Position numbers and translations under genes: made by a program | Origin: Cohaesibacter haloalkalitolerans | GTDB taxonomy: Bacteria > Pseudomonadota > Alphaproteobacteria > Rhizobiales > Cohaesibacteraceae | Direction of reading: 5' to 3' | Assembly: GCF_003574655.1 (NCBI RefSeq) | Contig: NZ_QNUM01000004.1 | Location: 124,001-188,000 of the forward strand | Length of the DNA stretch: 64,000 nucleotides | Part shown: in pieces, positions 14,031 through 47,623 of the stretch | Numbering within the stretch: position 1 is the first letter of the stretch | Layout of the letters: every line of letters starts with the position of its first letter | The notes under the pieces: model-generated | Told to the model about the DNA's origin: nothing | The model's input: only the letters and a program-made list of their open reading frames with translations | The model's database searches: none

Positions 14031-14122
14031 TATTTTTGATCAGGACCCCTCAACATTCGAACATTCAGGAATATTGAGTCTTAAGAATCGCTTGGCGACA
14101 GTCTTTGAGACGTTGATTCAAG

Positions 14123-15402: not shown

Positions 15403-15429
15403 ACAAAAGGCTGCCACTGGGGCAGCCTT
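15403..15429 (-). terminator. Terminator after rpsD
   Basis: Read on the minus strand, arms AAGGCTGCC and GGCAGCCTT enclose a 5-nt loop and are followed by TTGTCG (a four-T run counting the stem end). It lies 28 bases after the rpsD stop and separates rpsD from ttcA. Confidence 0.8.
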
Positions 15430-15456
15430 CTGAAAAAGACGGACAATCCGTTTCCC

Positions 15457-16074: not shown

Positions 16075-16290
16075 TCGCGTGTTTTCCTTGTTTTCGTTTT
16101 TAAGAAAACGCGCCCCTCCTGGGATCTTGGGCCAAAGCCGGATCCGACAGAAGACCATGGTTGCGCTCCTTGGTCTTCACGGGTGCGTCAAAAATCAAAG
16201 GGGGCCAACAACAGGCCCCGCAGAGATTGGATGGTGTTTAGAGCCTTTGCCCCGGCAAGTCAAATCGAATCCGCAGAATTTGGCGCAGAA

Positions 16291-17139: not shown

Positions 17140-17181
17140 CTTCGTCACTCACATCGCCTGAGCCGACATCAGACCGAACGA

Positions 17182-32178: not shown

Positions 32179-32994
32179 ATGGCCAACCAGCCACAATCCG
32201 TCCGGCCCGTTCTGTCCTTCCTCGACAAGGCAGGCCATCGCGCCAGCGAGGAGCGTTTCAGGCTATTATCCGAGATCGATCGGGAAGGGTCAATCTCGGC
32301 AGCGGCCAAGCGCCTCAATATAAGCTACAAGGCCGCATGGGACGCCGTCAACGCCCTCAACAACCTCTTCAGCACACCTCTGGTCGACGCCCAGCCCGGC
32401 GGTCGCAAGGGCGGCGGCGCCGTCCTCACAGATGAAGGCCGCAGGGCGCTGGAAGCCCACCGCCATCTCACCGACCGCCTCAACCAGTTCATTGCCGAAA
32501 TCGAACGCGAGATTTCCGGCAACCCGGGAGCCACCTCCCTTTCCAACCCCCTTCTATGGAGTTTTGCCATGCGCACCAGCGCCCGCAATGTCTTTCACGG
32601 CATCATCGAAGAGATCATCCCCGGCGCAGTCAATTCCGAAGTCTGCCTCAGGGTATCCGATCGCACTGTGCTGACCGTCATCATCACCAACAAGAGCATC
32701 GAGTCGCTGGATTTGCGCAAAGGCTCCGAGGCCTTTGCCCTCATCAAGGCATCAACCCCCATCCTGATGGCAGAGACAGAAACAGTCCGGCTGTCGGCCC
32801 GCAACCAGATTCAGGGCACCGTGATCTCGCTGGAGATGGGGGCCGTGAACAGCGAGGTGCTGCTTGATATCGGCAACAGCAAAACCCTCACCGTCGTGAT
32901 CACCAAACAGAGCGCCCTCTCCCTCGACATCAAGACCGGAGACAGAATGTGCGCCATGATCAAGGCCTCCCAGATCATTCTCGGCGTCGAGTAG
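32179..32994 (+). CDS. modE: Molybdate-responsive regulator ModE
   Basis: A 271-residue regulator. The N-terminal winged helix has ERFRLLSEIDREGSISAAAK then LNISYKAAWDAVNALNNLF, typical of ModE. The C-terminal half carries two molbindin (Mop/TOBE) domains, around residues 125-195 and 198-268, each with a SARN start and a TVIITNKSIESLDLRKG or TVVITKQSALSLDIKTG core. ModE dimers bind molybdate and repress molybdate uptake genes. The start at 32179 is chosen because an earlier ATG (32143) lies inside the operator. It heads a modE-modA-modB-modC cluster on one strand. Confidence 0.94.
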   Translation: MANQPQSVRPVLSFLDKAGHRASEERFRLLSEIDREGSISAAAKRLNISYKAAWDAVNALNNLFSTPLVDAQPGGRKGGGAVLTDEGRRALEAHRHLTDRLNQFIAEIEREISGNPGATSLSNPLLWSFAMRTSARNVFHGIIEEIIPGAVNSEVCLRVSDRTVLTVIITNKSIESLDLRKGSEAFALIKASTPILMAETETVRLSARNQIQGTVISLEMGAVNSEVLLDIGNSKTLTVVITKQSALSLDIKTGDRMCAMIKASQIILGVE

Positions 32995-33065
32995 ATCCCT
33001 CCGACGAACCACAGCTCAATGAACCAGGCAAGCCAACTCCATTCATGCAAAAAGGACACTGTTCC

Positions 33066-33827
33066 ATGAAGCCATCAATCCAGTCTCTGTTGTCCGCCTC
33101 GATCCTGGCCCTTTCGCTCACCATCGGCGCAGCCGCTCAGGCGGCCGAAACGAAAGTGGCTGTCGCAGCCAACTTCACCGCCGCAGCCAAGGAAATCGCC
33201 ACGGCCTTCGAAGCGGAAACCGGCCACACCGCCGTCCTCAGCTTCGGCTCGACCGGCAAGATCTACACCCAGATCGCCAACGGCGCCCCCTTCTCGCTGT
33301 TCCTTGCCGCCGACCAGGCCCGCCCGATCAAGGCCGAGAAGGAAGGCCTTGCCGTTGCAGACACCCGCTTCACCTATGCTCAGGGCAAGATCGTGCTGTA
33401 CAGCACAGACCCGGCTCTCGTCGACAGTGAAGGCGCAGTTCTGCAGTCACCGGACAAGTTCGACAAACTGGCCATCGCCAACCCCAAGACGGCTCCTTAC
33501 GGTGCGGCAGCCATGGAAACGCTCGCCAACCTGAAGGTTCCATCCGCCGTCATGGATGCTCTGGTGCAAGGGGACAGCATTTCCCAGACCCATCAGTTTG
33601 TCGCCTCCGGCAACGCCCAGCTCGGGTTTGTCGCCCTCTCGCAGGTGGTGGACAGCAAGGAAGGCTCGCAGTGGGTCGTGCCGTCTGACCTTTACACACC
33701 GATCAAGCAGGACGTCGTTCTGTTGAAGACCGGCGCCGATGATGAAGCCGCCAAGGCCTTCCTTGCCTTCCTCAAGAGCGACACGGCCAAGGCAATCATT
33801 CTCAAATTCGGCTATGGTGTCGAATAA
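33066..33827 (+). CDS. modA: Molybdate ABC transporter substrate-binding protein
   Basis: A 253-residue periplasmic protein. A signal peptide ([20 protein letters not shown], cleavage near AQAAE) is followed by the ModA motifs [19 protein letters not shown] and [20 protein letters not shown], with the oxyanion-binding Ser residues. Later motifs include [16 protein letters not shown] and [13 protein letters not shown]. It binds molybdate or tungstate for the ModBC importer. It lies 71 bases after modE and 47 bases before modB, in the same operon. Confidence 0.95.
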
Positions 33828-33874
33828 CCCATTGCCGAATCCTGCCTGACAAGGCCGAGGAAGGGAGAAACACA

Positions 33875-34540
33875 GTGCTGGAAGCGATCACCCTGACACT
33901 GGAGCTGGCGATAACCGTCACCATTCTGCTGCTGTTGATCGGCACCCCCATCGCATGGTGGCTGGCCCGGTCAAAGAGCTGGTGGAAAGAGGTGGTCGGG
34001 ACGCTGGTCTCCCTGCCTCTGGTGCTGCCGCCAACCGTCCTCGGCTTCTATCTGCTGCTGGCCCTCGGGCCAAACAGCCTGCTGGGGCGCTCCATCGCCT
34101 CGGTTATTGGCCACACCCTGCCCTTCACCTTTGCAGGGCTGGTTGTGGCCTCCATCATCTATTCGCTGCCCTTCATGGTGCAGCCGGTGCGCAATGCCTT
34201 CGAAGCCATCGGCGAGCGGCCGCTTGAGGTGGCCTCCACCCTGCGCGCCTCGCCACTGGACTGCTTCTTCTCCGTCGTCCTGCCGCTGGCAAGACCGGGC
34301 CTCATCACCGGCACCATTCTCAGCTTTGCCCACACAGTGGGTGAATTCGGCGTGGTGCTGATGATCGGCGGCAACATCCCCGGCGAGACCAAGGTCCTGT
34401 CCATTGCCATCTATGACTATGTCGAGACGCTGGAATGGAACAAGGCCCACATTCTGGCAGGCGGCATGCTCGTCTTCTCCTTCCTCGTCATCTTCAGCAC
34501 GACCACAATCGAGAAGCGTCTGAGGAGGCGCATGCAATGA
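33875..34540 (+). CDS. modB: Molybdate ABC transporter permease
   Basis: A 221-residue inner-membrane permease with about five helices. [22 protein letters not shown] is characteristic of ModB, and the cytoplasmic EAA loop that contacts ModC is near residues 125-150 ([20 protein letters not shown]). [21 protein letters not shown] is another family segment. The start is a GTG at 33875 behind GAAGGGAG. Its stop overlaps the modC start (ATGA), implying translational coupling. Confidence 0.95.
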
Positions 34541-35664
34541 GCCGCACCCTCACCGACCAGCCAGAGATGATCACAGCCAGCTTCAAGGGCCTTCAGGGCG
34601 CCTTCGAACTCGACGCATCCTTCAGGCTTTCCGCATCTGGCGTCACCGCCCTGTTCGGCCCATCCGGCTGCGGCAAGACCAGCGTCTTGCGCTGCATTGC
34701 CGGTCTCAACCAGATGAAGGAAGGCTATTTCTCGCTCAAGGGCGAGGTCTGGCAGGATGGCGAAAGCTTCCTGCCCGCCCACAAGCGCCCCGTCGGCTAT
34801 GTCTTTCAGGAGGCAAGCCTGTTTCCCCACCTGTCGGTCGAGCAGAATCTCATCTACGGCCAGAAACGCAGCCGCTCGGCCCCTGCCCCGGATCAGACCG
34901 TTCTCAATCAGGCCGATGTGGTCGAGCTGCTCGGCATTGGCCCGCTGCTCAGGCGCTCCCCCAACAAGCTTTCCGGCGGCGAACGTCAGCGGGTCGCCAT
35001 TGGCCGCGCGCTGCTGTCCCGCCCGCGCATCCTGCTGATGGACGAACCCATGGCAGCGCTGGACCGCTTCAGCAAGAACGAGATCCTGCCCTATCTGGAA
35101 CGCCTGCATGACGAGCTGAAAATTCCCATGCTCTACGTCAGCCATGACATCACCGAGGTCGAGCGGCTCGCCGACCAGATGGTGCTGATGGAAATGGGCA
35201 AGGTGAAAGCCGCAGGCTCTCTGCAAACACTGCTGTCCGACCCGAGCCTTTCCCTCTCCAGCATGCCCGAAGCTGCCTCGGTTCTCACCGGCACTCTCAC
35301 CGCCATGGACGATGCCTTTGGCATCAGCACCATCGTGGTGTCGGGACAACGTTTTCAGATCCCCGGTGTCAAGGGCCCCATCGGACGCTCCGTGCGCCTC
35401 CGCATCGAAGCCAGCGACGTGGCCCTGTCCCGCCACATGCCGGAGGGAACATCCTCGATCCTCAACACACCGTCGGTAACCATCGAGACGATCCAGTCCT
35501 TTGGCCAGCACATGACCAACGTCTTCCTCGGACTGGGGGAGGATCTAGACCGCCAGACCCTCATCGCCCGCATTTCCAGAAAGAGCCTTCATGCCCTCGA
35601 TTTAAGGGTCGGAGACCGGCTGCAGGCGATGATCAAGTCCGTCTCCATGGTGAGAGACGTTTAA
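34537..35664 (+). CDS. modC: Molybdate ABC transporter ATP-binding protein
   Basis: A 375-residue ATPase. Walker A is [14 protein letters not shown] near residue 43, the signature is [16 protein letters not shown], Walker B is [12 protein letters not shown], and the switch His is in YVSHDITE. The last 80 residues form a TOBE/Mop domain (near 290-365, ending [20 protein letters not shown]) that can bind molybdate and regulate transport. A GAGGAGG ribosome binding site precedes the ATG, which overlaps the modB stop codon. It is the final gene of the mod operon. Confidence 0.95.
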
Positions 35665-35766: not shown

Positions 35767-37638
35767 TCAGAAGTAGGGTTCGGTCACCCACGGAACGCAG
35801 GCCACGATGATCACCGACACGAGGATGGCGAACATGTAGGGCCAGATGGCTTTCATCGCCTTGTCGGGCTCGATGCCACCAATCGCACAGGCCTGATAGA
35901 AGCCGATGCCGAGAGGCGGAACAAACAGGCCAAGGCTCATGGACAGAACCATCATGATGGCATAGTGCACACCACCGATACCGAGTTCCAGAGCAATCGG
36001 GAACAGCAGCGGAGCAAACACCACGACCGCCGGGATGCCTTCAAGCACACTGCCAAGGATCGCAAAGACCACGATCGACAGCGCCATGTATCCGGCAGCA
36101 CCACCAGGCATCTGCTCCATCATGGCAGCAAGCTGATGGGAGAAGCCAGACTGGGTCAACGCCCAGGCCATGGCGGTCGCCGTGCCCAGAATGATCATGA
36201 TCGCACCGGACAGCGCCAGCGAGTTGCACAGCATCTTCCACATTCTGGCTGCCGGGAACTTGCGATAGAGCAGGATCGAGACCAGCAAGGTATAGACGAT
36301 ACCAACGGTGGCCACTTCGGTTGCCGTCGCGATACCGGCCACCACCGCCACGCGGATGACCGCAAGCAGCAGGAAGGCAGGAAGCGCATTCAGCAGGGCA
36401 AGCACGATCTGCTTGCGGCTGGCCCGCTTGGCTTCCGTGACGTCTTCATCACGAGAGCGGAAGTAGGCAACGATCAGCAGGCCGATGGCACCAAGAGCTG
36501 CCGGGATCAGGCCACCCGTAAACAGGGCCGCAATGGAAACACCCGTTACCGACCCCACGGTGATGAGCACGATGGACGGCGGAATGGTTTCACCCATGGC
36601 TGCAGAGGAAGACAGCAGGCCGATGAGCTCGCCCGGTTCCTTGCCACGTTTCTGCATTTCAGGCAGCAGCACCGGAGCAATGGCAGCCATGTCGGCAGCC
36701 TTCGAACCGGAGATACCGGAAACCAGATACATCGCACCGACGAGCACGTAGGACAGGCCGCCCTTGAAGTGGGCAACCAGCGCCGCCAGCACGTTGACCA
36801 GAGCCGCAGCCAGCCCCGTCACCTCGATCAGCAGACCAAGCAGCACGAACAGCGGGATCGACAGCAGCACGAAACCGGACATGCCCTCGTCCATACGGCT
36901 GATCACAATAACCATCGGCATGTAGGTCATGAACTTGAGGTAGACGACCGTGGCCAGACCAAAGGCAACCGCGATGGGTGCTCCGCCGAACACCAGCGCA
37001 GCAAGGCCGATGCCGAAGAAGATGATCAGGTTGAAGTTTTCCATTTCCTCAAGCTGCGGCAGGAAGACCGTCAGCAGTACACCGCACACAGCGATCACCA
37101 CCGCACCAAAGATCAGATCCGAGATTTTGACCTTCTGCACGAGCTGCAGAATGGCAACAATCATCATCAGGGTCAGACCGACGAACATCGCCGCCGAGCG
37201 CACCGTATCCGGCAACTGAAGGGCCGGAGTAGTGATCATCATCTGACCTTCGGCATGTTCCAGGGCGGGTGGTACGAGCAATCCCAGGAACAGGATGACA
37301 CACATGGATGCCAGGGTGTTGATACGGGATTGCCAGCGTTTTGGCGCCAATCCGACAACCACAGTCAGATGCATGTGGCCACCCTTGTGTTGAGCCACAA
37401 CGGCCCCGAACATGCTCAGCCACAAAAACAGGATGGTAGCCAATTCATCCGACCAGACCAGTGGGGAATGCAGGGCGTAGCGAAATGCTACGCCAGCAAA
37501 GAGAACCACGACCTCCAACCCCAGGAAAATGGCCCCAGGAATTTCGACAACGAGCGCAATCCATTTTTCAAGCTTTGCGCAAAAGTCACGAAAAGAGGAC
37601 AGTCCATCTTCCGAATTCGTTTCAACGATAGTCGACAT
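35767..37638 (-). CDS. TRAP transporter permease, fused small and large subunits (DctQM)
   Basis: 623 residues. Residues about 25-175 are a four-helix DctQ-like domain (LVWSDELATILFLWLSMFGA, then HLTVVVGLAPKRWQ). Residues about 200-623 are a DctM-like domain with some twelve helices; ISGSKAADMAAIAPVLLPEM and GLFVPPLGIGFYQACAIGG are typical of the large subunit. TRAP systems use ion gradients to import acids such as sugar acids. The start lies 9 bases after the stop of the binding protein gene, so they form an operon. The cluster context (kinase and PdxA2-type dehydrogenase) points to a tetronate such as D-threonate as substrate; this is inference. Confidence 0.93.
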   Translation of the reverse strand: MSTIVETNSEDGLSSFRDFCAKLEKWIALVVEIPGAIFLGLEVVVLFAGVAFRYALHSPLVWSDELATILFLWLSMFGAVVAQHKGGHMHLTVVVGLAPKRWQSRINTLASMCVILFLGLLVPPALEHAEGQMMITTPALQLPDTVRSAAMFVGLTLMMIVAILQLVQKVKISDLIFGAVVIAVCGVLLTVFLPQLEEMENFNLIIFFGIGLAALVFGGAPIAVAFGLATVVYLKFMTYMPMVIVISRMDEGMSGFVLLSIPLFVLLGLLIEVTGLAAALVNVLAALVAHFKGGLSYVLVGAMYLVSGISGSKAADMAAIAPVLLPEMQKRGKEPGELIGLLSSSAAMGETIPPSIVLITVGSVTGVSIAALFTGGLIPAALGAIGLLIVAYFRSRDEDVTEAKRASRKQIVLALLNALPAFLLLAVIRVAVVAGIATATEVATVGIVYTLLVSILLYRKFPAARMWKMLCNSLALSGAIMIILGTATAMAWALTQSGFSHQLAAMMEQMPGGAAGYMALSIVVFAILGSVLEGIPAVVVFAPLLFPIALELGIGGVHYAIMMVLSMSLGLFVPPLGIGFYQACAIGGIEPDKAMKAIWPYMFAILVSVIIVACVPWVTEPYF

Positions 37639-37647
37639 AACTAATCC

Positions 37648-38667
37648 TTAGCCGAGCTTGCCAGAGTATTTTTCAAGAAGGCTCCAGGCCTTGTCACCAA
37701 ACTTCTCTTGCCACTTGGAATAGAAGTCGGTCTTGTTCAGAGCTTCAACAAACGGCTTCGGATCCGGCTGCGTGATGGTCATGCCCTTGGCTTCCAGATC
37801 AGCACGAACAGAATCATTAAGCTTGGCGATATCATCGCGCTGCTTCAGGCCGCAGTCGTTGAGGATGTCTTCTGCAATCTTCTGGATGTCGGCAGGCAGG
37901 CGTTTCCAGGTCAGACCACTGGCAACGAACAGATAGCCGTCCCAGATGTGGTTGGTCAGCATGGCATATTTCTGGACTTCATAGAGCTTGGCGGTCTGAA
38001 TGATCGGCAGCGGGTTCTCCTGAGCGTCCATGACATGCGTCTGCAGGGAGGTGTAAACCTCGGAGAACTGCATGCTGGTCGGAGCAGCACCCAGAGCTTC
38101 AAACAGGCTGATGGACAGCTGGCTGACCGGCACGCGGATCTTGATGCCATGCAGGTCTTCCGGAGAGTTGACCGGAGCCTCGGAGGTAGTCAGCTGACGG
38201 AAGCCGTTGTCCCAGACCGTGCGCATCATGTGCAGGCCGGCCTTTTCGATTTCCTCACCGACGAACCCGCCAAGGTCGCCATCCATGGCCGCCCAGACAT
38301 GGTCATAATCAGGGAATGCGAAACCCACTGCGTTGATCGGAGCAACAGGCACGAGCGTTGCAATCACGAGAGCAGACGGGGTGAAAAAGTCGATCGCGCC
38401 GAAACGGACCTGATTGAGCATGTCGGTATCACCGCCAAGCTGGTTGCTTGGGAAGATCTTGATATCGAAATCGCCGTTGGTTTCCTCCTTGATTCGCTTG
38501 GAAGCCTCGGCAGCGCGCACGTTCAACGGATGAGACAGAGGAAGGTTGTTACCATATTTATAAACAAACTTGGATTTTGCCTCTGCACGGATATGCGGCA
38601 TTGCCAATGTGGCCGGAACGGCCAGGGCTGCGGACTTCAACAGATTTCGTCTGCTAATGATTGCCAT
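37648..38667 (-). CDS. TRAP transporter substrate-binding protein (DctP)
   Basis: This DctP-family periplasmic protein is 339 residues long. The N-terminus, SRRNLLKSAALAVPATLAMP, has a twin-arginine pattern, so export may be by Tat. The family ligand-contact region is near VNSPEDLHGIKIRVPVSQLS, with the carboxylate-binding Arg in KIRVP, and YTSLQTHVMDAQENPLPII follows. It precedes the fused permease gene and is the first gene of a minus-strand operon whose upstream region carries the 19-bp cluster palindrome. The ligand is probably an acid sugar, by context. Confidence 0.93.
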   Translation of the reverse strand: MAIISRRNLLKSAALAVPATLAMPHIRAEAKSKFVYKYGNNLPLSHPLNVRAAEASKRIKEETNGDFDIKIFPSNQLGGDTDMLNQVRFGAIDFFTPSALVIATLVPVAPINAVGFAFPDYDHVWAAMDGDLGGFVGEEIEKAGLHMMRTVWDNGFRQLTTSEAPVNSPEDLHGIKIRVPVSQLSISLFEALGAAPTSMQFSEVYTSLQTHVMDAQENPLPIIQTAKLYEVQKYAMLTNHIWDGYLFVASGLTWKRLPADIQKIAEDILNDCGLKQRDDIAKLNDSVRADLEAKGMTITQPDPKPFVEALNKTDFYSKWQEKFGDKAWSLLEKYSGKLG

Positions 38668-38735
38668 GTTTTCTTCTCCCTAAATAAGGCATCAAATATG
38701 GGTTCAGTTCGCAACTGCGTGACGCCTCTAGATTT

Positions 38736-38754
38736 GTAACATAATATCTGTTAC
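38736..38754. promoter_or_regulatory. Palindromic operator, site 1 (TRAP / VOC divergent region)
   Basis: GTAACA-TAATATC-TGTTAC, with perfect 6-bp arms. It lies 69 bases before the binding-protein gene and 43 before the VOC gene, between divergent starts. The same pattern recurs at 40576-40594. Confidence 0.8.
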
Positions 38755-38796
38755 GTTCCTTGTCCATAGATGTTTTATTCTCTCGGGAGTTAAAAA

Positions 38797-39366
38797 ATGA
38801 GTAGGTTCTTCGGTGAGGTCCGCCAGATCGGCTATGTCGTCAGGAATATTGAAGAAGCAATGGAGTTCTGGTCCAAGACACTTGGCATAGGCCCTTGGTT
38901 TTACGCAGAAAAAATCGCTGATAAGGACTTTTACTATAAAGGCGAATTATCCCCTATCGAGCGTTCGGTTGCCCTGGCAAATTCTGGGTATATTCAAATG
39001 GAACTTGTGCAACAGCTCAATGATGCGCCTTCCATGTACCTCGACTTTCTCAACGCAGGCCGCACAGGAGCGCAGCATTTCGCCTATTGGACGCGCAATT
39101 ACACCGAAGATCTGGCCCGCCTGACCAAGCAGGGACTGACCGTCGGCATGAACGGTGCAGTGGGAGATGACGGCCGTTACTGCTACTTCGAAACCGAGTT
39201 TCATCCGGGCACGGTCATTGAATTATCTGAGGTAAACGGGCCAAAAGGCACGCTTTTCAAGACCATTCGCGACGCCAGCATCAACTGGGATGGCAGCGAC
39301 CCGATCCGTCCGTTCCCGGATCTTTCCACACTGCCTTATACCGCTCCGGAAGACTTCCCGATCTAG
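38797..39366 (+). CDS. VOC-family (glyoxalase-like) protein in the acid-sugar cluster
   Basis: A 189-residue protein of the vicinal oxygen chelate superfamily, closest in feel to methylmalonyl-CoA epimerase or glyoxalase_4 domains. RQIGYVVRNIEEAMEFWSKT is the first beta-alpha motif, but the usual metal His appears as Gln (RQIG). IQMELVQQL, AQHFAYW and TVIELSEVNG hold the other three probable ligands (Glu, His, Glu). A GGGAG ribosome binding site precedes the ATG. The gene is divergent from the TRAP operon and shares its palindromic operator. A function in the sugar-acid pathway, such as epimerisation or isomerisation, is suggested by context but not shown. Confidence 0.85.
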   Translation: MSRFFGEVRQIGYVVRNIEEAMEFWSKTLGIGPWFYAEKIADKDFYYKGELSPIERSVALANSGYIQMELVQQLNDAPSMYLDFLNAGRTGAQHFAYWTRNYTEDLARLTKQGLTVGMNGAVGDDGRYCYFETEFHPGTVIELSEVNGPKGTLFKTIRDASINWDGSDPIRPFPDLSTLPYTAPEDFPI

Positions 39367-39404
39367 GTTTAAGAAGCCCCAGAAGATCACAACAAGCCTG
39401 TTGA

Positions 39405-39440
39405 TAAAAAAGCCCCCTCAAACGCCGTTTGAGGGGGCTT
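39405..39440. terminator. Terminator between the VOC and PdxA2-type genes
   Basis: A perfect 14-bp inverted repeat, AAGCCCCCTCAAAC and GTTTGAGGGGGCTT, with a 3-nt loop. On the minus strand a TTTTTTATC run follows, so it mainly serves the PdxA2-type gene; it may act on both. Confidence 0.92.
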
Positions 39441-39521
39441 ACTTAATTCTGACTATGGTAATATCACATATTTGGCGTGACAAATACCAATATCTCACAC
39501 ATCACGTGAGATCGAAGAACA

Positions 39522-40496
39522 TCACTTAACAGGCTTCATGCGACGCGCCATGGCAATGGCAGCTTTCATGTTGCCGGGACGTGCAAGACCGCCCTTCCAG
39601 GCGATGTCGAAGGCCGTACCGTGGTCAACGGATGTCCGCAGGATCGGCAGACCGGCGGTGATGTTCACGCAGTCATGACCACCAATCAGCTTGGCAGGAA
39701 TGTGCCCCTGATCATGATATTGGGCCACGACAATATCGAACCGCCCCTCGATCGCCTGTTCAAACACGATATCGCCAGGAATCGGCCCCGTCACGTTGAT
39801 TCCCTCAGCCCGCGCAGCTTCAATTGCCGGGATCACCTGGGTATCGTCCTCAGTGCCATAATGGCCGTTTTCCCCGCAATGCGGGTTGATTCCAGCCACC
39901 CCGATCCGCGGCTCGGCAACGCCAGTGGTCAGAACATGCTGGTTCGCAATCCGGATGGTTTCCAGCACGGTTTCCGTCGTGCAATAGCGCACGGCATCAG
40001 CCAGCGAGATGTGGGTGGAAACGTGGATAACCGACAGTTTTGGCCCGGCCAAAACGGCGAAATTCTTTTTCACGCCAGTGAAAAGCTTCAGCAATCCGGC
40101 GTGCCCACTGAGATTGTAACCAGCTTCCCGCAACGCCGTCTTGTGCAGGGACGCCGTGCAAACCACATCGATTTCCCCAGCCAACGCCATATCCACCGCC
40201 TTTTTCACACAGCGGCAGGCAGCCTCCCCGGCATCTGGCTGGATCTCGCCAGGACGGATGGATTCGGCATTCGGCGCATCCACCTGCACCAGCGGCACAG
40301 CGCCGCTTGGAACCTCGCCTTCCGAGACAAACTGAAAGTCCGCACCGATCATGTCACGGGCCCGCTCCATGAACAGACGATCACCGATAACAATCACCCC
40401 GGCCCGTTCTTCTGCCGTCATATCCTGCAAGGACTTGCAAATAACCTCCGGCCCGATGCCCGCAGGATCACCCATAGTCAGACCAATCTTGTTCAT
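39522..40496 (-). CDS. pdxA2: PdxA2-type 4-phospho-D-threonate 3-dehydrogenase
   Basis: A 324-residue NAD-dependent enzyme of the PdxA family. IGLTMGDPAGIGPEVICKSL is the N-terminal motif, and metal-binding His residues are found in HVSTHISLADAVRY and VAQYHDQGHIPAKL. GINPHCGENGHYG is another family stretch. In tetronate degradation PdxA2 oxidises and decarboxylates 4-phospho-D-threonate to dihydroxyacetone phosphate. The adjoining DUF1537 kinase gene is the known partner, which supports this over vitamin B6 synthesis. The start at 40496 follows GGAG; the in-frame ATG at 40520 is less well placed. Confidence 0.88.
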   Translation of the reverse strand: MNKIGLTMGDPAGIGPEVICKSLQDMTAEERAGVIVIGDRLFMERARDMIGADFQFVSEGEVPSGAVPLVQVDAPNAESIRPGEIQPDAGEAACRCVKKAVDMALAGEIDVVCTASLHKTALREAGYNLSGHAGLLKLFTGVKKNFAVLAGPKLSVIHVSTHISLADAVRYCTTETVLETIRIANQHVLTTGVAEPRIGVAGINPHCGENGHYGTEDDTQVIPAIEAARAEGINVTGPIPGDIVFEQAIEGRFDIVVAQYHDQGHIPAKLIGGHDCVNITAGLPILRTSVDHGTAFDIAWKGGLARPGNMKAAIAMARRMKPVK

Positions 40497-40575
40497 ATCT
40501 TCAACTCCAAACGTTGCCACTCGCCCGCATGGGGCATGCCTCTGAGTGCATTATACACACCCTGCGATGATAAAC

Positions 40576-40594
40576 ATAACATGATATCTGTTAT
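40576..40594. promoter_or_regulatory. Palindromic operator, site 2 (pdxA2 / kinase divergent region)
   Basis: ATAACA-TGATATC-TGTTAT, with perfect 6-bp arms and 16 of 19 positions equal to site 1 at 38736-38754. It lies 80 bases before pdxA2 and about 100 before the kinase gene. The consensus is RTAACA-TRATATC-TGTTAY. Confidence 0.8.
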
Positions 40595-40698
40595 ATTTTA
40601 CGCCAAGGCTGTTGTCTATCGTGATTTTTGTGATACAAATCGATTATCCAAGGCGTGACGATCGCCTCCTTTCCTTAATGCAGAGGCCTATTCAGATC

Positions 40699-42066
40699 AT
40701 GACAGTTTCAGGCGAAAAGCAGGATTTGCTTCTTTCCTTTTATGGCGACGATTTCACCGGCTCGACCGATGCACTGGAATCCGTCACCATGGCAGGCATT
40801 CCGGCCATGCTCTTTCTGTCCCCACCCACAGTGGACGACCTGAAAGCCTACCCGCATATCCGCGCCGTCGGCGTTGCCGGCACCAGCCGCAGCCAGTCAC
40901 CGGCATGGATGGACGTTCACCTGCGCGAAAGTTTTGCCGGGCTGAAGGCCCTTGGCGCCCCGATCTGTCACTACAAGACCTGCTCGACATTCGATTCTGC
41001 CCCGACCATCGGCAACATCGGCAAGGCAATTGAGCTGGGCCATGACATTTTCGGCACCGCCGTGCCGGTCGTTGTCGGCGTCACCCGCCTCAAGCGCTAT
41101 GTGGTCTTTTCCAACCTGTTCGCCGCCGCCAGTGTCGCCGGAGACAGCGAGGCTTTCCGCATCGACCGTCACCCCACCATGAGCAAGCATCCATCCACCC
41201 CGATGAATGAAGCCGACCTGCGAGTGCATCTGGCGCGCCAGACCGGCCGCAAGATCGAGGGCATGGATTTCCGCCGCATGCTGGCCGACAACGCTTCCGA
41301 AGCCTTCGCCAAACTGTGCGAGGACAATGACGCGGTCATCCTCGACACTTTCGACGATGCCACGACCACCAGAACCGGACAGCTGCTGCATGAACGCAGC
41401 CTGTTGCAGCCGACCTTCGTGGTCGGGTCTTCAGGCGTTGAATATGCGCTGGCCGACTATCTTACCAAACAGGGCACCCTGCCGCTGGTCGAACCGCCGC
41501 TGCCGCGCGGTCCGGTCGAACGCACGATTGCCATCTGCGGCAGTTGCTCGCCAACCACCGACCGGCAGATCGAGTGGGCCAAGGCCAACGGCTTCTTCGT
41601 CAGCGCGATCGATACGGTAGCACTGGTCGAAAAGGGCGAGGAAGAGGAAATGCGGCTGGCTGAAGAACTGGTCCGGCTCACCTCAGAACACAAGGGCATC
41701 GTCCTTCACACGGCGCGTGGCCCGAATGATCCACAGATTGCCGCAACCCGTGCAGCCCTCGAACGCAAGGGCCTGACGTCGGCGGACAGCTCCCCCGTCA
41801 TGGGCTCTGCCACCGGCCGCATTCTCAAACATGCCATCAAGGCAACCGGCCTCAAACGTACCATTCTGGCGGGCGGTGACAGCTCAAGCCACGCCGTCTC
41901 AGCCATGGGCATCACCAATCTCGAAGTAGCCGGTCCGCTCGTTCCGGGTGCACCGCTCTGCCGCGTCCATTCCGCCGATAGTGCTATCGACGGCACCGAG
42001 ATTTCTCTTAAAGGTGGCCAGGTGGGAGAAGATAACTTCTTCGGGCGCGTTATGAGTGGGAAATAG
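40699..42066 (+). CDS. dtnK: Four-carbon acid sugar kinase (DUF1537 family, D-threonate kinase-like)
   Basis: A two-domain ATP-dependent kinase of about 455 residues. LSFYGDDFTGSTDALESVTM is the N-terminal substrate-domain motif. The C-terminal nucleotide domain has MGSATGRILKHAI and ILAGGDSSSHAVSAMGI. DUF1537 enzymes phosphorylate D-threonate, D-erythronate and related acids; with a PdxA2-type dehydrogenase next door, D-threonate is the leading candidate. Earlier in-frame starts exist (ATG 40678, TTG 40612); ATG at 40699 is preferred because it gives the family N-terminus. It is followed two bases later by the DeoR regulator gene. Confidence 0.87.
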   Translation: MTVSGEKQDLLLSFYGDDFTGSTDALESVTMAGIPAMLFLSPPTVDDLKAYPHIRAVGVAGTSRSQSPAWMDVHLRESFAGLKALGAPICHYKTCSTFDSAPTIGNIGKAIELGHDIFGTAVPVVVGVTRLKRYVVFSNLFAAASVAGDSEAFRIDRHPTMSKHPSTPMNEADLRVHLARQTGRKIEGMDFRRMLADNASEAFAKLCEDNDAVILDTFDDATTTRTGQLLHERSLLQPTFVVGSSGVEYALADYLTKQGTLPLVEPPLPRGPVERTIAICGSCSPTTDRQIEWAKANGFFVSAIDTVALVEKGEEEEMRLAEELVRLTSEHKGIVLHTARGPNDPQIAATRAALERKGLTSADSSPVMGSATGRILKHAIKATGLKRTILAGGDSSSHAVSAMGITNLEVAGPLVPGAPLCRVHSADSAIDGTEISLKGGQVGEDNFFGRVMSGK

Positions 42067-42068
42067 TC

Positions 42069-42893
42069 ATGGCCAGTTCCAAAACATCATCCAGTCGAGA
42101 AGCCGAGTTGCAGGACGCCGACGGCAAGCAGCCGATGAAGGCGGAAGATCGCCGTCAGCAGATCCTGACGATGGTCCAGAGCCAGAAGACCGTGCAGCTT
42201 GATCATCTGGCCAGAGAACTGGGCGTCAGCCGCATGACAGTTCACCGGGATCTGGATCTTCTGGAAAGCCGGGGTCTTCTGCGCAAGGAGCGGGGCGGTG
42301 CGACCGCCGAGAGCTCGCTGCTGTTCGAAAGCAATTTTCACTACCGCCGCCAGACTGATGAAAGCGTCAAACGGGAGCTGGCCCGCGCCGCCTCCGAACT
42401 GATCGAGCCGGGCAGCGCCATCATGCTGGATGACAGCACGACAACCCTGTTGATGTGCGAGCATATCGAGTTGATCGAGAATGTCACGGTGATCACCAAT
42501 TCCCTCGCCGTGTGCGAACGGCTGAAGGGATCGTCCAACGTCCAGTTGATCGTGACCGGCGGCAATTACAGCGACACTCACAAGAGCTTTTCCGGCCTGA
42601 TCTGCGAACAGGCGCTCAGCCAGCTCCGTTCCGATTGGGTCTTCATGTCCGCCTCGTCGGTCATCGACAATCGGCTGTTTCATCAGGATCAGGAAATCGT
42701 CCGCGTCAAACGCGCCCTCATGGCAGCGTCCGAACGCAAGGCGCTCCTGTTGACCTCACGAAAATTCAAGACACGTGCCCTCACCCAGTTCGCCGATCTC
42801 ACTGAATTCGACAAGCTTTTCATAGACCGCCAACTGGATGACGCCACAAAACAACGACTTAATCTTTCGAGAATTGATTTCGATCTCGTTTAG
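42069..42893 (+). CDS. DeoR-family transcriptional regulator
   Basis: A regulator of 274 residues. The helix-turn-helix is at about residues 40-62 (VQLDHLARELGVSRMTVHRD, then LDLLESRGLLRKERGG). The C-terminal DeoR sensor domain begins near residue 90 and has IMLDDSTTTLLMCEHIE, TNSLAVCERL and VTGGNYSDTHKSFSG, which bind phosphorylated sugars in this family. The N-terminal 20 residues are an extra polar tail. It lies between the kinase and the aldolase genes and is the natural candidate to bind the two palindromes at 38736 and 40576, with 4-phosphothreonate or DHAP as possible effector (inference). Confidence 0.93.
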   Translation: MASSKTSSSREAELQDADGKQPMKAEDRRQQILTMVQSQKTVQLDHLARELGVSRMTVHRDLDLLESRGLLRKERGGATAESSLLFESNFHYRRQTDESVKRELARAASELIEPGSAIMLDDSTTTLLMCEHIELIENVTVITNSLAVCERLKGSSNVQLIVTGGNYSDTHKSFSGLICEQALSQLRSDWVFMSASSVIDNRLFHQDQEIVRVKRALMAASERKALLLTSRKFKTRALTQFADLTEFDKLFIDRQLDDATKQRLNLSRIDFDLV

Positions 42894-42907
42894 CAAGGAT
42901 AAGAGCA

Positions 42908-43765
42908 ATGCTTCAGAAACTGGGCCAGCAAGTGCGCCTCTCCCGCATCCTGAATCCGAAAACGCAACGGGGCTTCTGCATCGCCTTTGACCATTCGTTG
43001 CAGTTGGGAACATGCAAGGGAATGGACCAACCCGAACTGATGCTCGACTATATGGCGGAAGCTGGCGTAGATGCTGTCATCCTGCCGCTCGGCTCGGCCC
43101 TTCATTACGGTCCGCATCTGGTGCGCAATGGTGGCCCGGCTCTCATCCTGCGTCTCGACCAGACCACCATGTGGCGCGAAGGCACCCCGCTGGCCTACAA
43201 GGATGGCTACACCCGCCTCATCGCCTCGGTTGATGACGCCGTTGCCCTCGGCGCCGAAGCCGTGATCACCTATCTGTTCGTTGGCCACAATGATCCAGAT
43301 GTTGAAACCGCTGCTTTCCGTGCCAATGCCGACGTCAACACCGCAGCCCGCGAGCGCGGCATCGTCCATATCATCGAAACCATGGGGGCCCGCCACGCCC
43401 TTGCCGCCGACATCAACGATGGCGAATTCGTCGGCTTCCATGCCCGTATCGGTGTGGAAATGGGTGCAGACATCATCAAGACCGACTGGCCGGGCAGCCC
43501 CGAAGCCCTCAAGACCATCGCCAACCAGTTGCCGGTGCCCATCATGCTCGCCGGTGGTCCCAGGACCGACAGCGACTACGGCACGCTCAATCTGGTTTCC
43601 CAGATCGTCAACGCCGGTGCCGCAGGCATCCTGTTCGGTCGCTCGATCTTCCAGTCCGACGACCCGCTGGCCCTGATGAAGGCCTGCCGCTCGGTCATCC
43701 ACGACAATGCTTCAGCCGATGAAGCCGCTGAACTTGCCAAGCTGCAATTGCCGATAGCCTCATGA
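42908..43765 (+). CDS. DhnA-type class I aldolase of unknown substrate
   Basis: A TIM-barrel protein of 285 residues from the DeoC/LacD/DhnA group. RGFCIAFDHSLQLGTCKGM is the first motif, and GADIIKTDWPGSPEALK near residue 190 has the Lys expected to form the Schiff base. MLAGGPRTDSDYGTLNLVSQ and AGAAGILFGRSIFQ resemble the phosphate-binding end of fructose-bisphosphate aldolases and LsrF. It starts 14 bases after the regulator gene behind AAGGAT. In the cluster it may split or join phosphorylated sugars with DHAP, the product of PdxA2; no such step is needed for D-threonate alone, so its role is unclear. Confidence 0.82.
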   Translation: MLQKLGQQVRLSRILNPKTQRGFCIAFDHSLQLGTCKGMDQPELMLDYMAEAGVDAVILPLGSALHYGPHLVRNGGPALILRLDQTTMWREGTPLAYKDGYTRLIASVDDAVALGAEAVITYLFVGHNDPDVETAAFRANADVNTAARERGIVHIIETMGARHALAADINDGEFVGFHARIGVEMGADIIKTDWPGSPEALKTIANQLPVPIMLAGGPRTDSDYGTLNLVSQIVNAGAAGILFGRSIFQSDDPLALMKACRSVIHDNASADEAAELAKLQLPIAS

Positions 43766-44021: not shown

Positions 44022-44867
44022 TCAGTCGTTACCCGGAATCTCAGGTTTCTGAACGAGAAGCCTTTCGAAATAGACCGACAGTTCGGTGAGAAGGTCATTG
44101 GAGATGGTCTGTCGTTCACCGCCTGCGGACAGCACCTTGCGGTGAATGCCTGCGGCCTTCTCGATGGTCTCGACAAGACCGAAGACGGAATCCGGGGTTG
44201 CTTCCGAGGCAAAGATGCCGTGGTGGGTCCAGGAGATGATCCGGCCGTGCTCCATTTCCTTGATCGATGCATCGGCAATGTCCGTGGTGCCGGGCAGCAT
44301 CGGCGGAACGATGCGAACGCCATCGGGGAAGATCACAATGCATTCGGGCATCTTGGTCCACAGTGCCATCGTCAGCTCCTTGCTGTCCAGCGGCAGGATG
44401 TAGCTGAGCGCGATGAACTCGGGCGCATGGCAATGCATGATGATCCGCTCGCGGCCCTTGGAGACGCGCTTGCGCACCGCATGACCGGCAAGATGGGTGG
44501 CAAATTCCGAGGTCGGCCGCCCGCCGTTGCTGAAGCCCCAGACGGTCTGATAGGCCGAACCGCCCTCGACAATCCGGACAATGCCGAAAACCTGATCGGG
44601 GAATTCTGTTGCGTGGCGGAAATACTGCCCGGTGCCGGTGACAATGAAATACTCCCCGTCCAGTGTTGGCTGCGGCTGCGGCAGCTTGACGGGCTCGGCC
44701 GGTGTCACATTCGGATAGCGGCGCGCCAGCACGCTTTCCACTTCATCGGTCGGCAGACGCCAGGAGATGTTGCCACCGTTGGCTTCGTTCCAGCCCATTT
44801 CCCAGCACAGGCGTGCCAGCGAGGCGACTTGCTGAACAAAGGGGATCGGGTGCGAAAATACAGTCAT
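44022..44867 (-). CDS. rhaD: L-rhamnulose-1-phosphate aldolase
   Basis: This class II zinc-dependent aldolase, 281 residues long, cleaves L-rhamnulose 1-phosphate to DHAP and L-lactaldehyde. NEANGGNISWRLPTDE near residue 28 is the phosphate-binding region, IIMHCHAPEFIALSY carries the zinc His pair, and SWTHHGIFASEATPDSVFG the third His. GTGQYFRHA also fits RhaD. It is the last gene of a rhaB-rhaA-rhaD minus-strand operon, 12 bases after rhaA, behind an AAGGAT ribosome binding site. Confidence 0.94.
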   Translation of the reverse strand: MTVFSHPIPFVQQVASLARLCWEMGWNEANGGNISWRLPTDEVESVLARRYPNVTPAEPVKLPQPQPTLDGEYFIVTGTGQYFRHATEFPDQVFGIVRIVEGGSAYQTVWGFSNGGRPTSEFATHLAGHAVRKRVSKGRERIIMHCHAPEFIALSYILPLDSKELTMALWTKMPECIVIFPDGVRIVPPMLPGTTDIADASIKEMEHGRIISWTHHGIFASEATPDSVFGLVETIEKAAGIHRKVLSAGGERQTISNDLLTELSVYFERLLVQKPEIPGND

Positions 44868-44879
44868 TGTGCGAAATCC

Positions 44880-46127
44880 TTATCCGCGAGCGGCCACACT
44901 GGCCTGATAGCTGTTGAGGTCGGCGATCAGCGCCTTGCCTGTTGGAACATTGTTGCGGGCGCAGAACTCATCCCAGATCACGCCATAGGGCAGATCCTTG
45001 AGCTCCTCGGTCATCAGGAAGCGCTGGGTGAAGTCGAGCTTCGTCTCGATAGCCTTGAGTTCAGCCTGCGGCATCAGCAGCGCCCGCAGCAGCGCCTTCT
45101 GCATGTTGCGCGTACCGATCACCCAGGCGGAGGTCCGGGCGATGGTCGCATCGAAGAAATCGAGCCCGATGTGGGTGCGGCCCAGAAGATTGCCGAATAC
45201 CAGTTCCTGCGCCATGGCCAGAATGTCGTCATTGAGCAGGATCACATGATCACTGTCCCAACGCATCGGACGGCTGACATGCAGCAGGATTTCCTTGACC
45301 GACAGGGAAACCGACGACAGCTTGTCGGCGATATTCTCGGTCGGGTGGAAATGGCCCATGTCGAGGCACAAAAGCGTGCCCTTGCGGATGGCATAGCCCA
45401 TGTAGAATTCATGGCTGCCCACCGTGCAGGCCTCGACGCCAATGCCGAACAGCTTGCTTTCGACCGCGTCCAGCATGTGGGCCGGATCATACGGCGTGGC
45501 GATCATCTCGTCGATGGCGCTTTCCAGTCGCTCGCGGGCCGCCAGACGGTCGACCGGCGTATCCTTGTAGCCATCCGGCACCCAGATATTGTCAACGCAT
45601 GGCGTGCCGAGTTCCTCGCCGAATTTGGCGGCGATGGCGCGGCAGCACTGGCCATGACGGATCCAGAAATCGCGGATCCCCTTGTCCGGGTGGGAAAGCG
45701 TCAGATTCTCGTGCACCTTGGGATGGGAAAAGAAGGTCGGGTTGAAATCGAGCCCGAGGCCGTTGTCCTTAGCCCAGTCCACCCAGCTGGCAAAGTGGCG
45801 GTAATCGAGTTCGTCACGGGCCGGTTTCTCGTCCGTATCGAGATAGCTTGCGTGCAGGCTGAGGCGATGCTTGCCAGGAAGCTTGCCATAGGCGAACTCC
45901 AGATCGGCGCGCAACTCGGCAGCGTTGCGGGCCCGGCCGGGATAGTTGCCGGTTGACTGAATGCCCCCGGCGCTGCCCCCTTCATTGTCTTCAAAGCCGA
46001 CGACGTCATCTCCCTGCCAGCAATGCATGGAAATGGGAATGCCGGCCAGGGTTTGCATGGCGGCTTCCGCATCAACGCCCCATTCCGCAAAGGCGTCGCG
46101 GGCGGCATCATAGTCTAGGCGTGTCAT
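44880..46127 (-). CDS. rhaA: L-rhamnose isomerase (RhaA type)
   Basis: A 415-residue enzyme converting L-rhamnose to L-rhamnulose. It is of the E. coli RhaA type: PISMHCWQGDDVVGFEDNEG near residue 30, NPTFFSHPKVHENLTLSHPD with metal and substrate ligands, CVDNIWVPDGYKDTPVDR, and LCLDMGHFHPTENIADKLSS. VILLNDDILAMAQELV and HIGLDFFDATIARTSAW complete the active site. Its start overlaps the last codon of rhaB by four bases (ATGA). Length is the same as its family. Confidence 0.95.
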   Translation of the reverse strand: MTRLDYDAARDAFAEWGVDAEAAMQTLAGIPISMHCWQGDDVVGFEDNEGGSAGGIQSTGNYPGRARNAAELRADLEFAYGKLPGKHRLSLHASYLDTDEKPARDELDYRHFASWVDWAKDNGLGLDFNPTFFSHPKVHENLTLSHPDKGIRDFWIRHGQCCRAIAAKFGEELGTPCVDNIWVPDGYKDTPVDRLAARERLESAIDEMIATPYDPAHMLDAVESKLFGIGVEACTVGSHEFYMGYAIRKGTLLCLDMGHFHPTENIADKLSSVSLSVKEILLHVSRPMRWDSDHVILLNDDILAMAQELVFGNLLGRTHIGLDFFDATIARTSAWVIGTRNMQKALLRALLMPQAELKAIETKLDFTQRFLMTEELKDLPYGVIWDEFCARNNVPTGKALIADLNSYQASVAARG

Positions 46128-47623
46128 TTGGCCTGTTCCTTCTGTCTGTCAAAAAGCGCGTGATAGCGCTGGCGAATGTCTGTCTGGGCGCGCGAGGTCT
46201 GCGGCTGATAGCGCGGCAGATCCTCACTGTCGCGAATGATCCGGCGGCCTTCCTCAAGATTGGCAATCCAGCCAAGGCCGATCATCTGCACCACCGCATT
46301 GCCCAGCGCCGAGGCCTCGAACGGTCCGGCAATGACCGGCCTGCCTAGGAAGTCGGCGGTCAACTGGCACAAGAGGGCGTTGCGTCCGCCACCGCCGACG
46401 ATGTGCAGCTCGGGGATCGGCTCGCCCTTGGCAAAGTCTTCCAGCACGTCGGCGAAGTTGAGCGCCAGGCTCTCGAAGATGCAGCGGGCCAGCTCGCCCC
46501 GGCTGGTCGGAACCGGTTGGCCGGTCTCGCGACAGGCGGCCTGAATCTCCTCGACCATCGACAGGGCGCGGAAATAGCGATCATCCATCGGATAGATCAG
46601 CGACCGCCCCGGTTCGGCCTGTTCCGCATCGGCAACCCAGTCGGCAAAATCACTGTCGGGCGCCATTTCCTCGCGCACTCGCTGGATCAGCCAGAGCCCG
46701 GAAACATTGCGCAGCTGGCGATAGGTATCGAACACCCCGCCTTCGTTGGAAAGGCCATGGCGGAAGGCATAGTCGGACAGATCCGGCACCAGAGCCTCGC
46801 GCCCCACCAGTGCCCATGTTCCCATGGAAATGAAATACGGCCCCCTGGTCAGGGAGGGCAGAGCAGCCACCGCCGAGGCAGTATCATGGGTGCCGCATAG
46901 CACAACCTTCGGTGCCTGGCCGGCGCCTGTGGGAAGCCCCCATTCGGAGCACCAGTCCGCCTTGAGCGGCCCCAGCACATCGCCAGCATTGCGAATGCGG
47001 GGCATCACCCTGGCGGGCAGACCGACCTGTTGCAACAGATCCGGATCCCAGTCCCGGTCGTGGACGCTGAGCATCTGGGTGGTGGTCGCATTGGTGTATT
47101 CGCTCGACCAGATGTCGGTCAGCTGGAAATGGATCCAGTCCGGTAGCAACATGAACCGGTCAAGACGGCTGTAGCTCTCCAAAGGCTGCCCCTTGAGGGC
47201 ATAGAGCTGATAGAGGCTGTTGAGCTCCAGCGACTGGATACCCGTCTTCTCGAACAGCTCGTGATTGCTGATGCCACTGTTGCGATAAAACTCCGGCATG
47301 ATGCCTTCGGTGCGGGCGTCGCGGTAGCTGACAAACGGCAACAGCGCGTTGCCGTCCGCATCGACGGGCACAAAGTCCACCGCCCAGCTGTCCACCCCGA
47401 TGGCGGCAAGGGATGGCGTCTCGGCAAAGGCCCTGGCCAACCCGGCGCGAATGCCGCCCCACAGATAGTCGAGATCCCAGCACAGATGATCGCCGCTGAG
47501 GGTCGGTCCATGCGGAAACCGGTTGACCTCCTCCAGCGACAGTCGACCATCCGCCAGCGTGATCCTGACAACCCGCCCGGACGATGCGCCCAGATCAACC
47601 GCCAAAACGGCCCCAGACACCAT
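46124..47623 (-). CDS. rhaB: Rhamnulokinase
   Basis: An FGGY-family kinase of 499 residues that phosphorylates L-rhamnulose at C1. The N-terminal VLAVDLGASSGRVVRITLA is the ATPase motif of RhaB; IGVDSWAVDFVPVD holds the catalytic Asp region; GTHDTASAVAALP and FISMGTWALVGRE are further ATP-site segments, and HIVGGGGRNALLCQLTAD is near residue 410. It is the first gene of the rha operon, with AGGAGGATAGT before the ATG at 47623. Gene order rhaB-rhaA-rhaD equals the enterobacterial order rhaBAD. Confidence 0.95.
   Translation of the reverse strand: MVSGAVLAVDLGASSGRVVRITLADGRLSLEEVNRFPHGPTLSGDHLCWDLDYLWGGIRAGLARAFAETPSLAAIGVDSWAVDFVPVDADGNALLPFVSYRDARTEGIMPEFYRNSGISNHELFEKTGIQSLELNSLYQLYALKGQPLESYSRLDRFMLLPDWIHFQLTDIWSSEYTNATTTQMLSVHDRDWDPDLLQQVGLPARVMPRIRNAGDVLGPLKADWCSEWGLPTGAGQAPKVVLCGTHDTASAVAALPSLTRGPYFISMGTWALVGREALVPDLSDYAFRHGLSNEGGVFDTYRQLRNVSGLWLIQRVREEMAPDSDFADWVADAEQAEPGRSLIYPMDDRYFRALSMVEEIQAACRETGQPVPTSRGELARCIFESLALNFADVLEDFAKGEPIPELHIVGGGGRNALLCQLTADFLGRPVIAGPFEASALGNAVVQMIGLGWIANLEEGRRIIRDSEDLPRYQPQTSRAQTDIRQRYHALFDRQKEQAK

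Follow-up and report, generated by a model that had tools for sequence, protein, structure and literature searches.

The window analysed here, a 64-kb stretch of the Cohaesibacter haloalkalitolerans genome (contig NZ_QNUM01000004.1, positions 124,001 to 188,000), contains at 35767-43765 a cluster of seven genes that encode a TRAP transporter (a fused permease and the binding protein DctP), a VOC-fold protein, a PdxA-family protein, a DUF1537 kinase, a DeoR-family regulator and an aldolase of the DhnA/LsrF/MJ0400 family (Table 1). The seven genes are one unit, beyond chance adjacency. Across related kinase loci, the PdxA-aldolase module is exchanged with a RuBisCO-like protein (RLP), and this exchange is well supported by gene content. 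We propose that the cluster carries out the DeoR-controlled import and catabolism of a sugar whose carboxyl is borne by a branched carbon that also carries a hydroxyl. L-aceric acid is the most likely such sugar, and we give this proposal about an even chance; we infer the substrate, each reaction and the order of the reactions.

Exchange of the RLP and the PdxA-aldolase module

The RLP was sought within 7 kb, with a length filter, in 80 named kinase loci (loci and genomes carry L and G numbers). An RLP without the PdxA-aldolase pair is found in 68 loci, the pair without an RLP in six, and neither in six. Of the last six, L030, L032 and L073 do show a cut-off RLP match, the kinase lies at the end of its contig in L014 and L029, and L080 lacks an RLP match. 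The combination of PdxA, kinase, DeoR and aldolase recurs in 6/80 named loci, and also on a plasmid of Azospirillum thermophilum. In L009 and L010, genes for an Asp/Glu-racemase-like protein (AGrac) and a TRAP transporter are inserted between kinase and DeoR. Addition of the window, plasmids and congeners gives a set of 98 kinase loci, which includes near-copies of one genus and plasmids fetched by their VOC, and in this set the RLP and the PdxA-aldolase pair never co-occur. The VOC is found with the RLP in nine of the 98 loci and with the pair in 11, and AGrac in 18 and two, respectively. Pair-bearing loci carry the VOC (11), AGrac (2) or neither (only L011, where the contig ends at the permease), and the partners in the 74 non-PdxA loci are relatives of the ApnO-like protein of L148 (hereafter ApnO; 28 loci), AGrac (19 loci), both of these (one locus) and the VOC (one locus). 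This exchange clearly exemplifies the replacement of one pathway module by another.

Kinases of the window's clade (15 rows) have the aldolase and DeoR beside them in every case, PdxA in 14, the VOC in 11 and AGrac in two; L011 stops at the contig end, and the genome of L118 keeps PdxA and the VOC at another place. A sequence-only reading of the window had listed TRAP, kinase, PdxA-type, regulator, VOC and aldolase genes and had counted the last two enzymes as parts of the cluster. Both points stand, as all seven gene products exceed their Pfam cut-offs and the VOC and aldolase are kept in most rows of the clade.

Among 41 relatives searched (the window's own genome included), the kinase is found at E 1e-100 or better in 11, all of which belong to the genus (18 genomes). 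These hold 12 copies, with DeoR and aldolase beside 12/12 and PdxA also beside 11/12. The aldolase (E 1e-60 or better) is found in 1/337 genomes of the class, namely the window's own. Named carriers are Cohaesibacter marisflavi, Rhodovulum sp. PH10, a Rhodoplanes metagenome-assembled genome (MAG), two Rhodospirillales MAGs, an Acetobacteraceae MAG and the A. thermophilum plasmid. In congener G390 the unit is split between two places, 3.45 Mb (aldolase-DeoR-kinase) and 4.08 Mb (PdxA-VOC-TRAP-LacI). In congeners L119 and L121 the PdxA module is joined to a different, split TRAP transporter and LacI; G400 has both this type and the window type. The eight VOC plasmid loci that were opened (of 19 matches at 52% or more) all have the order LacI-TRAP-VOC-RLP-kinase; in one of them a dehydrogenase gene is added.

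Kinase, PdxA and aldolase

With curated NCBIfam models, the window kinase reaches 479.4 bits for the 3-oxo-isoapionate kinase OiaK (NF042436, cut-off 700), and an own-genome kinase near an OiaX that exceeds its cut-off reaches 464.8 bits with the same model. It falls below the cut-offs for the 3-oxo-tetronate kinase OtnK (NF043035, 145.9 bits, cut-off 350) and D-threonate kinase (NF047819, 50.5 bits, cut-off 450), as does the window PdxA for D-threonate-4-phosphate dehydrogenase (NF002891, 311.3 bits, cut-off 583). The OtnC model (NF043034) found a sole match among ten proteins scanned, to RhaD (21.2 of 250 bits). In a quick kinase tree, the 15/15 kinases of the PdxA form are a single clade (Shimodaira-Hasegawa-like approximate likelihood ratio test (SH-aLRT) 100), nested in a larger set (SH-aLRT 99) that holds kinases of RLP/ApnO loci. 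Thus, the PdxA form appears to be derived. On the scores with the curated models, D-threonate was rejected as the substrate. The sequence-only reading had treated the kinase and PdxA as the known D-threonate pair, which the scores and the nesting among RLP-adjoining kinases contradict; the branched acid that it had also considered is probably the right kind of substrate. The D-threonate pathway DtnK-PdxA2, reportedly the work of Zhang et al. 2016, is like the window in having a DUF1537 kinase beside a PdxA-family enzyme and a TRAP transporter; however, the window adds two conserved enzymes to proteins that miss the D-threonate models.

The window PdxA (PF04166, 305.8 bits) is above the cut-off of the vitamin B6 model TIGR00557 (318.9 bits, cut-off 290.35), so automatic annotation would label it a vitamin B6 enzyme. 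Its nearest solved relatives are 2hi1 and 6e85 (275 and 267 bits, versus 168 for the PdxA1 entry 1yxo). The reaction known for PdxA is oxidation of a hydroxyl that is beta to a carboxylate, accompanied by release of CO2. The His motifs of the metal site and the Lys motif are conserved in 15/15 aligned clade members. The motif that reads GHTE in the five solved relatives aligned is replaced by GHAG in 14/15 clade members and by GHTG in L009, suggesting that the pocket may have changed.

The aldolase is nearer to MJ0400 than to LsrF (129 versus 94 bits). Its Lys191 (the K in ADIIKTDWPG) aligns with the LsrF lysine, which reads Ala in 4p2v, and this Schiff-base lysine is kept in 15/15 aligned members of the aldolase clade, which also share the motifs LDQTTMWR and IETMGAR, with single-position variants. 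The enzyme would act as a thiolase or an aldolase.

VOC, AGrac and the binding protein

The fold search agreed with the VOC assignment, and the VOC model resembles methylmalonyl-CoA epimerase. Many HPPD dioxygenases are listed below 3gm5 in the same search, and a dioxygenase role is conceivable. Glyoxalase I, which has the same fold, acts via a metal-bound enediolate. The VOC and AGrac are never in the same locus among the 98, and each pairs with both downstream modules. Because they are mutually exclusive and yet serve the same two modules, we infer that they do the same job, with an isomerase of the ketose-aldose type fitting both. True Asp/Glu racemases have two cysteines, the second in GCT. 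AGrac was rejected as a two-cysteine racemase, as the first cysteine is present in 22/22 aligned copies and the second is absent, with Q-x-S instead. With a single cysteine, a proton shift that uses one base would be more fitting than racemisation, which uses two.

In VOC trees, proteins of the PdxA and RLP forms are interleaved, and a single PdxA-type VOC clade is rejected by the approximately unbiased (AU) test (p-AU 4.8e-7 and 2.3e-7), giving at least three changes between the forms. The VOC of A. thermophilum (PdxA form) is paired with that of A. brasilense (RLP form) and the window's group with L036 (RLP form), and the VOCs of three congeners with split TRAP and LacI (PdxA form) fall among Rhodobacterales (RLP form). 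Thus, the import-plus-VOC module has been joined to both downstream modules more than once. Such repeated joining would be expected if the VOC product feeds both modules. The VOC-linked proteins form their own clade, and the unlinked VOC relatives are a separate one (95/93); a universally linked VOC family was rejected on account of these relatives, which are described below. A wider view, by eye, of seven generic VOC loci suggested no function.

The VOC-RLP-kinase clusters with LacI and TRAP genes, in A. brasilense and others, have a VOC of the same clade as the window, and the type with a fused permease shares the clade of the binding protein. Unlike the window, they carry the RLP where PdxA, DeoR and aldolase would be, a LacI gene lies next to the transporter, and 8/9 have the other kinase lineage. 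No published function was found for these clusters.

The nearest solved relative of the window DctP is 4oan (58% identity). The entry and its gene name (RPB_2686) were confirmed, and a literature search found no paper on it. The ligand of 4oan, reportedly modelled as 2-acetolactate, a branched acid, was rejected as proof of the substrate and is not used as evidence, as the tree places 4oan with an unlinked group. Among the ligands of the TRAP screen, 2-acetolactate is listed (PMC5812351), but nothing found connects that listing with 4oan. DctP was also rejected as a marker of the cluster, since stretches of 11-19 kb around 9/9 other DctP relatives of the class (47-56%) have no VOC, RLP, PdxA or kinase matches.

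A proposed pathway for L-aceric acid

L-aceric acid is 3-C-carboxy-5-deoxy-L-xylose, from the pectin rhamnogalacturonan II. In the proposed route, the sugar acid would be taken up by the TRAP transporter and converted by the VOC, through a proton shift via a metal-bound enediolate, from the aldose to the ketose HOCH2-CO-C(OH)(COOH)-CHOH-CH3, which is 3-oxo-isoapionate, the substrate of OiaK, plus a methyl group. The OiaK-like kinase would phosphorylate the CH2OH, and PdxA would oxidise the C4 hydroxyl (beta to the carboxyl) with loss of CO2 to give 3-hydroxy-5-phosphonooxypentane-2,4-dione, which the LsrF-family enzyme would cleave via its lysine to dihydroxyacetone phosphate (DHAP) and acetyl-CoA. 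Balanced by hand, the ketose phosphate C6H11O9P minus 2H and CO2 gives C5H9O7P, the formula of this dione, and the LsrF family (NF006081), to which the window aldolase is related, has this dione in its name. In a variant, PdxA would decarboxylate only, and aldol cleavage of the resulting 5-deoxypentulose 1-phosphate would yield DHAP and acetaldehyde. In most relatives an RLP occupies the place that PdxA plus aldolase have here. LsrK-LsrG-LsrF, the autoinducer-2 breakdown route, has an LsrF-family aldolase and would have the dione as a common intermediate; however, the window aldolase misses the LsrF cut-off and the window kinase is of the DUF1537 type.

The link to aceric acid comes from GH127 genes, which are found in 12/19 AGrac loci versus 0/29 ApnO loci (Fisher p 7e-7, a value inflated by kinship). 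Eleven of the 12 are of one type, sharing 53% identity or more with the GH127 of L045; the twelfth shares 26%. Nine of these 11 aceric-type genes end 8-146 bp ahead of the RLP match on the same strand; three were checked with Pfam. None of this type was found in the 29 ApnO or the 25 partnerless loci scanned. The best solved match of the L045 GH127 is 5mqo (885 bits, with other solved GH127s at 411 or less), which we take to be BT_1003. BT1003 is given as an aceric acid hydrolase in two papers (PMC5698469, PMC10850190). An acid-sugar kinase and an RLP decarboxylase would fit a carboxylated sugar released by GH127 but not arabinose. Relatives of SASA esterases are found in 5/19 AGrac loci, as are GH106 relatives, with one SASA relative in an ApnO locus too. 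From the window's own genome, OiaX and the polygalacturonase PglA, both above cut-off, and the adjoining rhamnose genes were counted in favour.

Several observations weigh against this proposal. Single PdxA relatives are present in the RLP loci L058 (42%) and L081 (50%), single aldolase relatives (25-26%) are present in the RLP loci L023 and L031, and 25/74 non-PdxA kinase loci lack a recognised partner (ApnO, AGrac or VOC). In 385 genomes of the class, 23/23 other VOC relatives (49-57%) have no RLP, kinase, PdxA, aldolase or TRAP gene within about 1.5 kb, and 4oan falls outside the clade of VOC-linked binding proteins in the tree, grouping with unlinked ones. Of the nine VOC-RLP kinases, eight fall outside the set of 90 rows containing the window kinase, so the VOC works with two kinase lineages. 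The aldolase is below every curated cut-off (131.4 of 297 bits for the LsrF model NF006081), and PdxA would need to accept phosphate at the opposite side of the molecule. Aceric-type GH127 was found in 0/9 VOC-RLP and 0/14 PdxA loci scanned; a search of the own genome for GH127 placed none in the window, and the own-genome GH127 is of another type, 31% identical to that of L045. The aceric link comes from sister operons and reaches the window only through AGrac in L009 and L010 and through the mutual exclusion of VOC and AGrac. The GH127-bearing loci are mostly Bacteroidota, and it is this kinship that inflates the p-value. Finally, rhamnogalacturonan II is a land-plant polymer, yet several carriers are marine.

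Tentatively, the cluster might represent the first catabolic route for L-aceric acid, free of the RLP and passing via an intermediate of autoinducer-2 breakdown to an LsrF-like thiolase, with the GH127-RLP-kinase-AGrac operons as its polymer-linked form. Among the titles and abstract openings listed, none describes free aceric acid catabolism, and no listed title describes this gene set. No account was found there of how any organism uses this rare plant sugar. If the proposal is true, it assigns a testable function to two enzyme families that have no known role here, the VOC clade and the one-cysteine Asp/Glu-racemase-like family, as well as a substrate to a group of RLPs and a new reaction to PdxA.

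Alternative substrates and roles

Another 2-C-branched acid near apionate (a stereoisomer of apionate, 2-keto-apionate or a 2-C-methyl tetronate) is possible but rather doubtful as the substrate. In this case the VOC would replace ApnO as the source of a 3-oxo acid, the kinase would phosphorylate this acid, and PdxA and aldolase would follow to give DHAP and a C1 or C2 fragment. The place of the kinase clade in a set with ApnO/RLP kinases fits such an acid, as do OiaK being the best curated kinase match and the VOC and ApnO never sharing a locus among the 98. However, the own genome already has an OiaX over cut-off, an OiaK-like kinase and an ApnO-like gene in a separate TRAP cluster, the aldolase would have to release formaldehyde from an erythrulose 1-phosphate product, and GH127 goes with AGrac and not with ApnO. 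The D-apionate pathway ApnO-OiaK-OiaX, reportedly of Carter et al. 2018, shares with the window the OiaK-type DUF1537 kinase and, as its logical intermediate, the phosphate of a branched beta-keto acid, but the window instead has PdxA, the VOC and a DhnA/LsrF-type aldolase, and no match in the window was found to two RLP queries at E 1e-3 or to the ApnO-like protein of L148. The D-apionate pathway is also covered in PMC6302742.

A linear tetronate or 2-oxo-tetronate route, in which the VOC acts as OtnI (2-oxo to 3-oxo acid), the kinase as OtnK and the aldolase as a Schiff-base decarboxylase, with PdxA admitting acids like D-threonate, is unlikely. The solved structures nearest to the window PdxA are of the PdxA2 group, and a glyoxalase-type fold suits 2-oxo/3-oxo isomerisation, but the kinase scores for 3-oxo-tetronate and D-threonate kinases are far from their cut-offs, the own genome has an OtnK and OtnC pair, both above cut-off, separate from the window cluster, and a dedicated aldolase would be left without a reason. 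That same aldolase, beside 15/15 clade kinases, and the retention of the VOC through several module exchanges make it quite improbable that the two are passengers clearing by-products such as reactive aldehydes, with kinase and PdxA as the core, although generic VOC relatives do occur in other contexts (seven loci were viewed by eye). Catabolism of L-aceric acid is preferred to these alternatives.

Regulation

The cluster is one regulon, on the ground of a palindrome shared by both of its divergent promoters, DctP/VOC and PdxA/kinase; the sequence-only reading had called it a self-contained regulon, and this holds. The pair of sites is present in 9/14 genus genomes. The 19-bp palindrome RTAACATRATATCTGTTAY has one copy per promoter, and the window contains no further match with three or fewer mismatches; shuffled patterns gave none. 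Control is most likely exerted by the cluster's own DeoR, predicted to bind these sites. In the 14 genus genomes searched (own included), the pairs were identified with at most two mismatches to a looser pattern and are 1.83-1.85 kb apart. The second site has one mismatch in G395 and two in G400. G390 has a two-mismatch site before the kinase and G391 none near the cluster, and both carry LacI-type clusters. Only two-mismatch sites are found in the kinase-less genus genomes G394, G396 and G397. With reversed patterns as controls, each strand of a genome had 0 or 1 site, so a lone site with two mismatches is no more than chance would give.

The looser pattern adds one further site in the 5.0-Mb own genome (C4:52934-52952, two mismatches), with the same letters in G385 and G388. 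With the strict pattern and at most two mismatches, that genome has a single site besides the pair. This third operator-like site, with two mismatches, is associated with adhE, which encodes an acetaldehyde-CoA/alcohol dehydrogenase (L193 8569-8587; own genome C22:82568-82586), and at first seemed to favour acetaldehyde as a product. It overlaps the start codon and was not found in the near strains G385 and G388; adhE was thus rejected as a regulon member, the site being ascribed to chance.

Gene layout and other loci

Table 1. Features of the cluster, with positions in the window.
Feature	Position	Strand	Evidence
TRAP transporter permease, fused DctQ-DctM (small + large)	35767-37638	-	Pfam DctM 325.8 bits, DctQ 90.2 bits
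TRAP solute-binding protein DctP	37648-38667	-	Pfam DctP 266.5 bits
Operator-like palindrome GTAACATAATATCTGTTAC, DctP/VOC divergent promoter	38736-38754	unstranded	pattern search
VOC-fold protein, Pfam Glyoxalase_4; proposed aldose-ketose (enediolate) isomerase of acid sugar	38797-39366	+	
PdxA-family protein, distinct clade; proposed NAD-dependent (oxidative) decarboxylase	39522-40496	-	Pfam PdxA
Operator-like palindrome ATAACATGATATCTGTTAT, PdxA/kinase divergent promoter	40576-40594	unstranded	pattern search
DUF1537 kinase, OiaK-like (OiaK, 3-oxo-isoapionate kinase)	~40678-42066	+	Pfam SBD_N + NBD_C; NCBIfam; tree
DeoR-family regulator, proposed binder of both operators	42069-42893	+	Pfam DeoRC + HTH_DeoR
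Class I (Schiff base) aldolase or thiolase, DhnA/LsrF/MJ0400 family	42908-43765	+	Pfam DeoC (DeoC/LacD)

The permease and DctP genes are read leftward, the VOC rightward, PdxA leftward, and kinase, DeoR and aldolase rightward, with gaps of two bases between kinase and DeoR and 14 between DeoR and aldolase. The kinase starts at 40678 or 40699. The position of the fused permease matches that in L006, L120 and L131-L133. Rhamnose genes (44022-47623) adjoin the cluster in L131; in L120, L132 and L133 they do not, although all seven genes are intact there, and they are thus placed outside the unit. The window has no matches to Rfam families and no predicted tRNA genes. Upstream of the cluster is a molybdate ABC transporter, modA-modB-modC (32949-35664), each gene above its curated cut-off.

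Elsewhere in the own genome, L148 (C11:72000-90000) holds at 4266-14918 TRAP genes, the ApnO-like gene, which we take to be ApnO, an OiaK-like kinase, OiaX (over cut-off), a DeoR gene and triosephosphate isomerase. The ApnO-like protein is NAD-binding, with a phosphogluconate-dehydrogenase-like C-terminus. The strain probably also uses apionate by means of this cluster. PglA (L193 2794-4386, above cut-off) points to pectin use by the strain.

RLP loci without a recognised partner perhaps serve further substrates. A relative of short-chain dehydrogenases is encoded near the kinase locus in L053 and L067, L040 has a GntR regulator and a zinc-type dehydrogenase, and L068 is also of this kind. In L045, L063, L083 and L085 (1-16000), GH106, GH127, RLP, kinase, AGrac, a presumed MFS membrane protein, SASA esterase and DUF5703 are found together, and this stretch is likely to be a locus for side chains of rhamnogalacturonan II that includes a sugar pathway of its own. 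L081, from Paenibacillus lautus, has at 1962-17289 a second DUF1537 kinase, the PdxA relative, AGrac, RLP and an OiaK-like kinase, beside GH106 and GH78; a 574-aa protein with no Pfam match at E 1e-8 is encoded between these genes.

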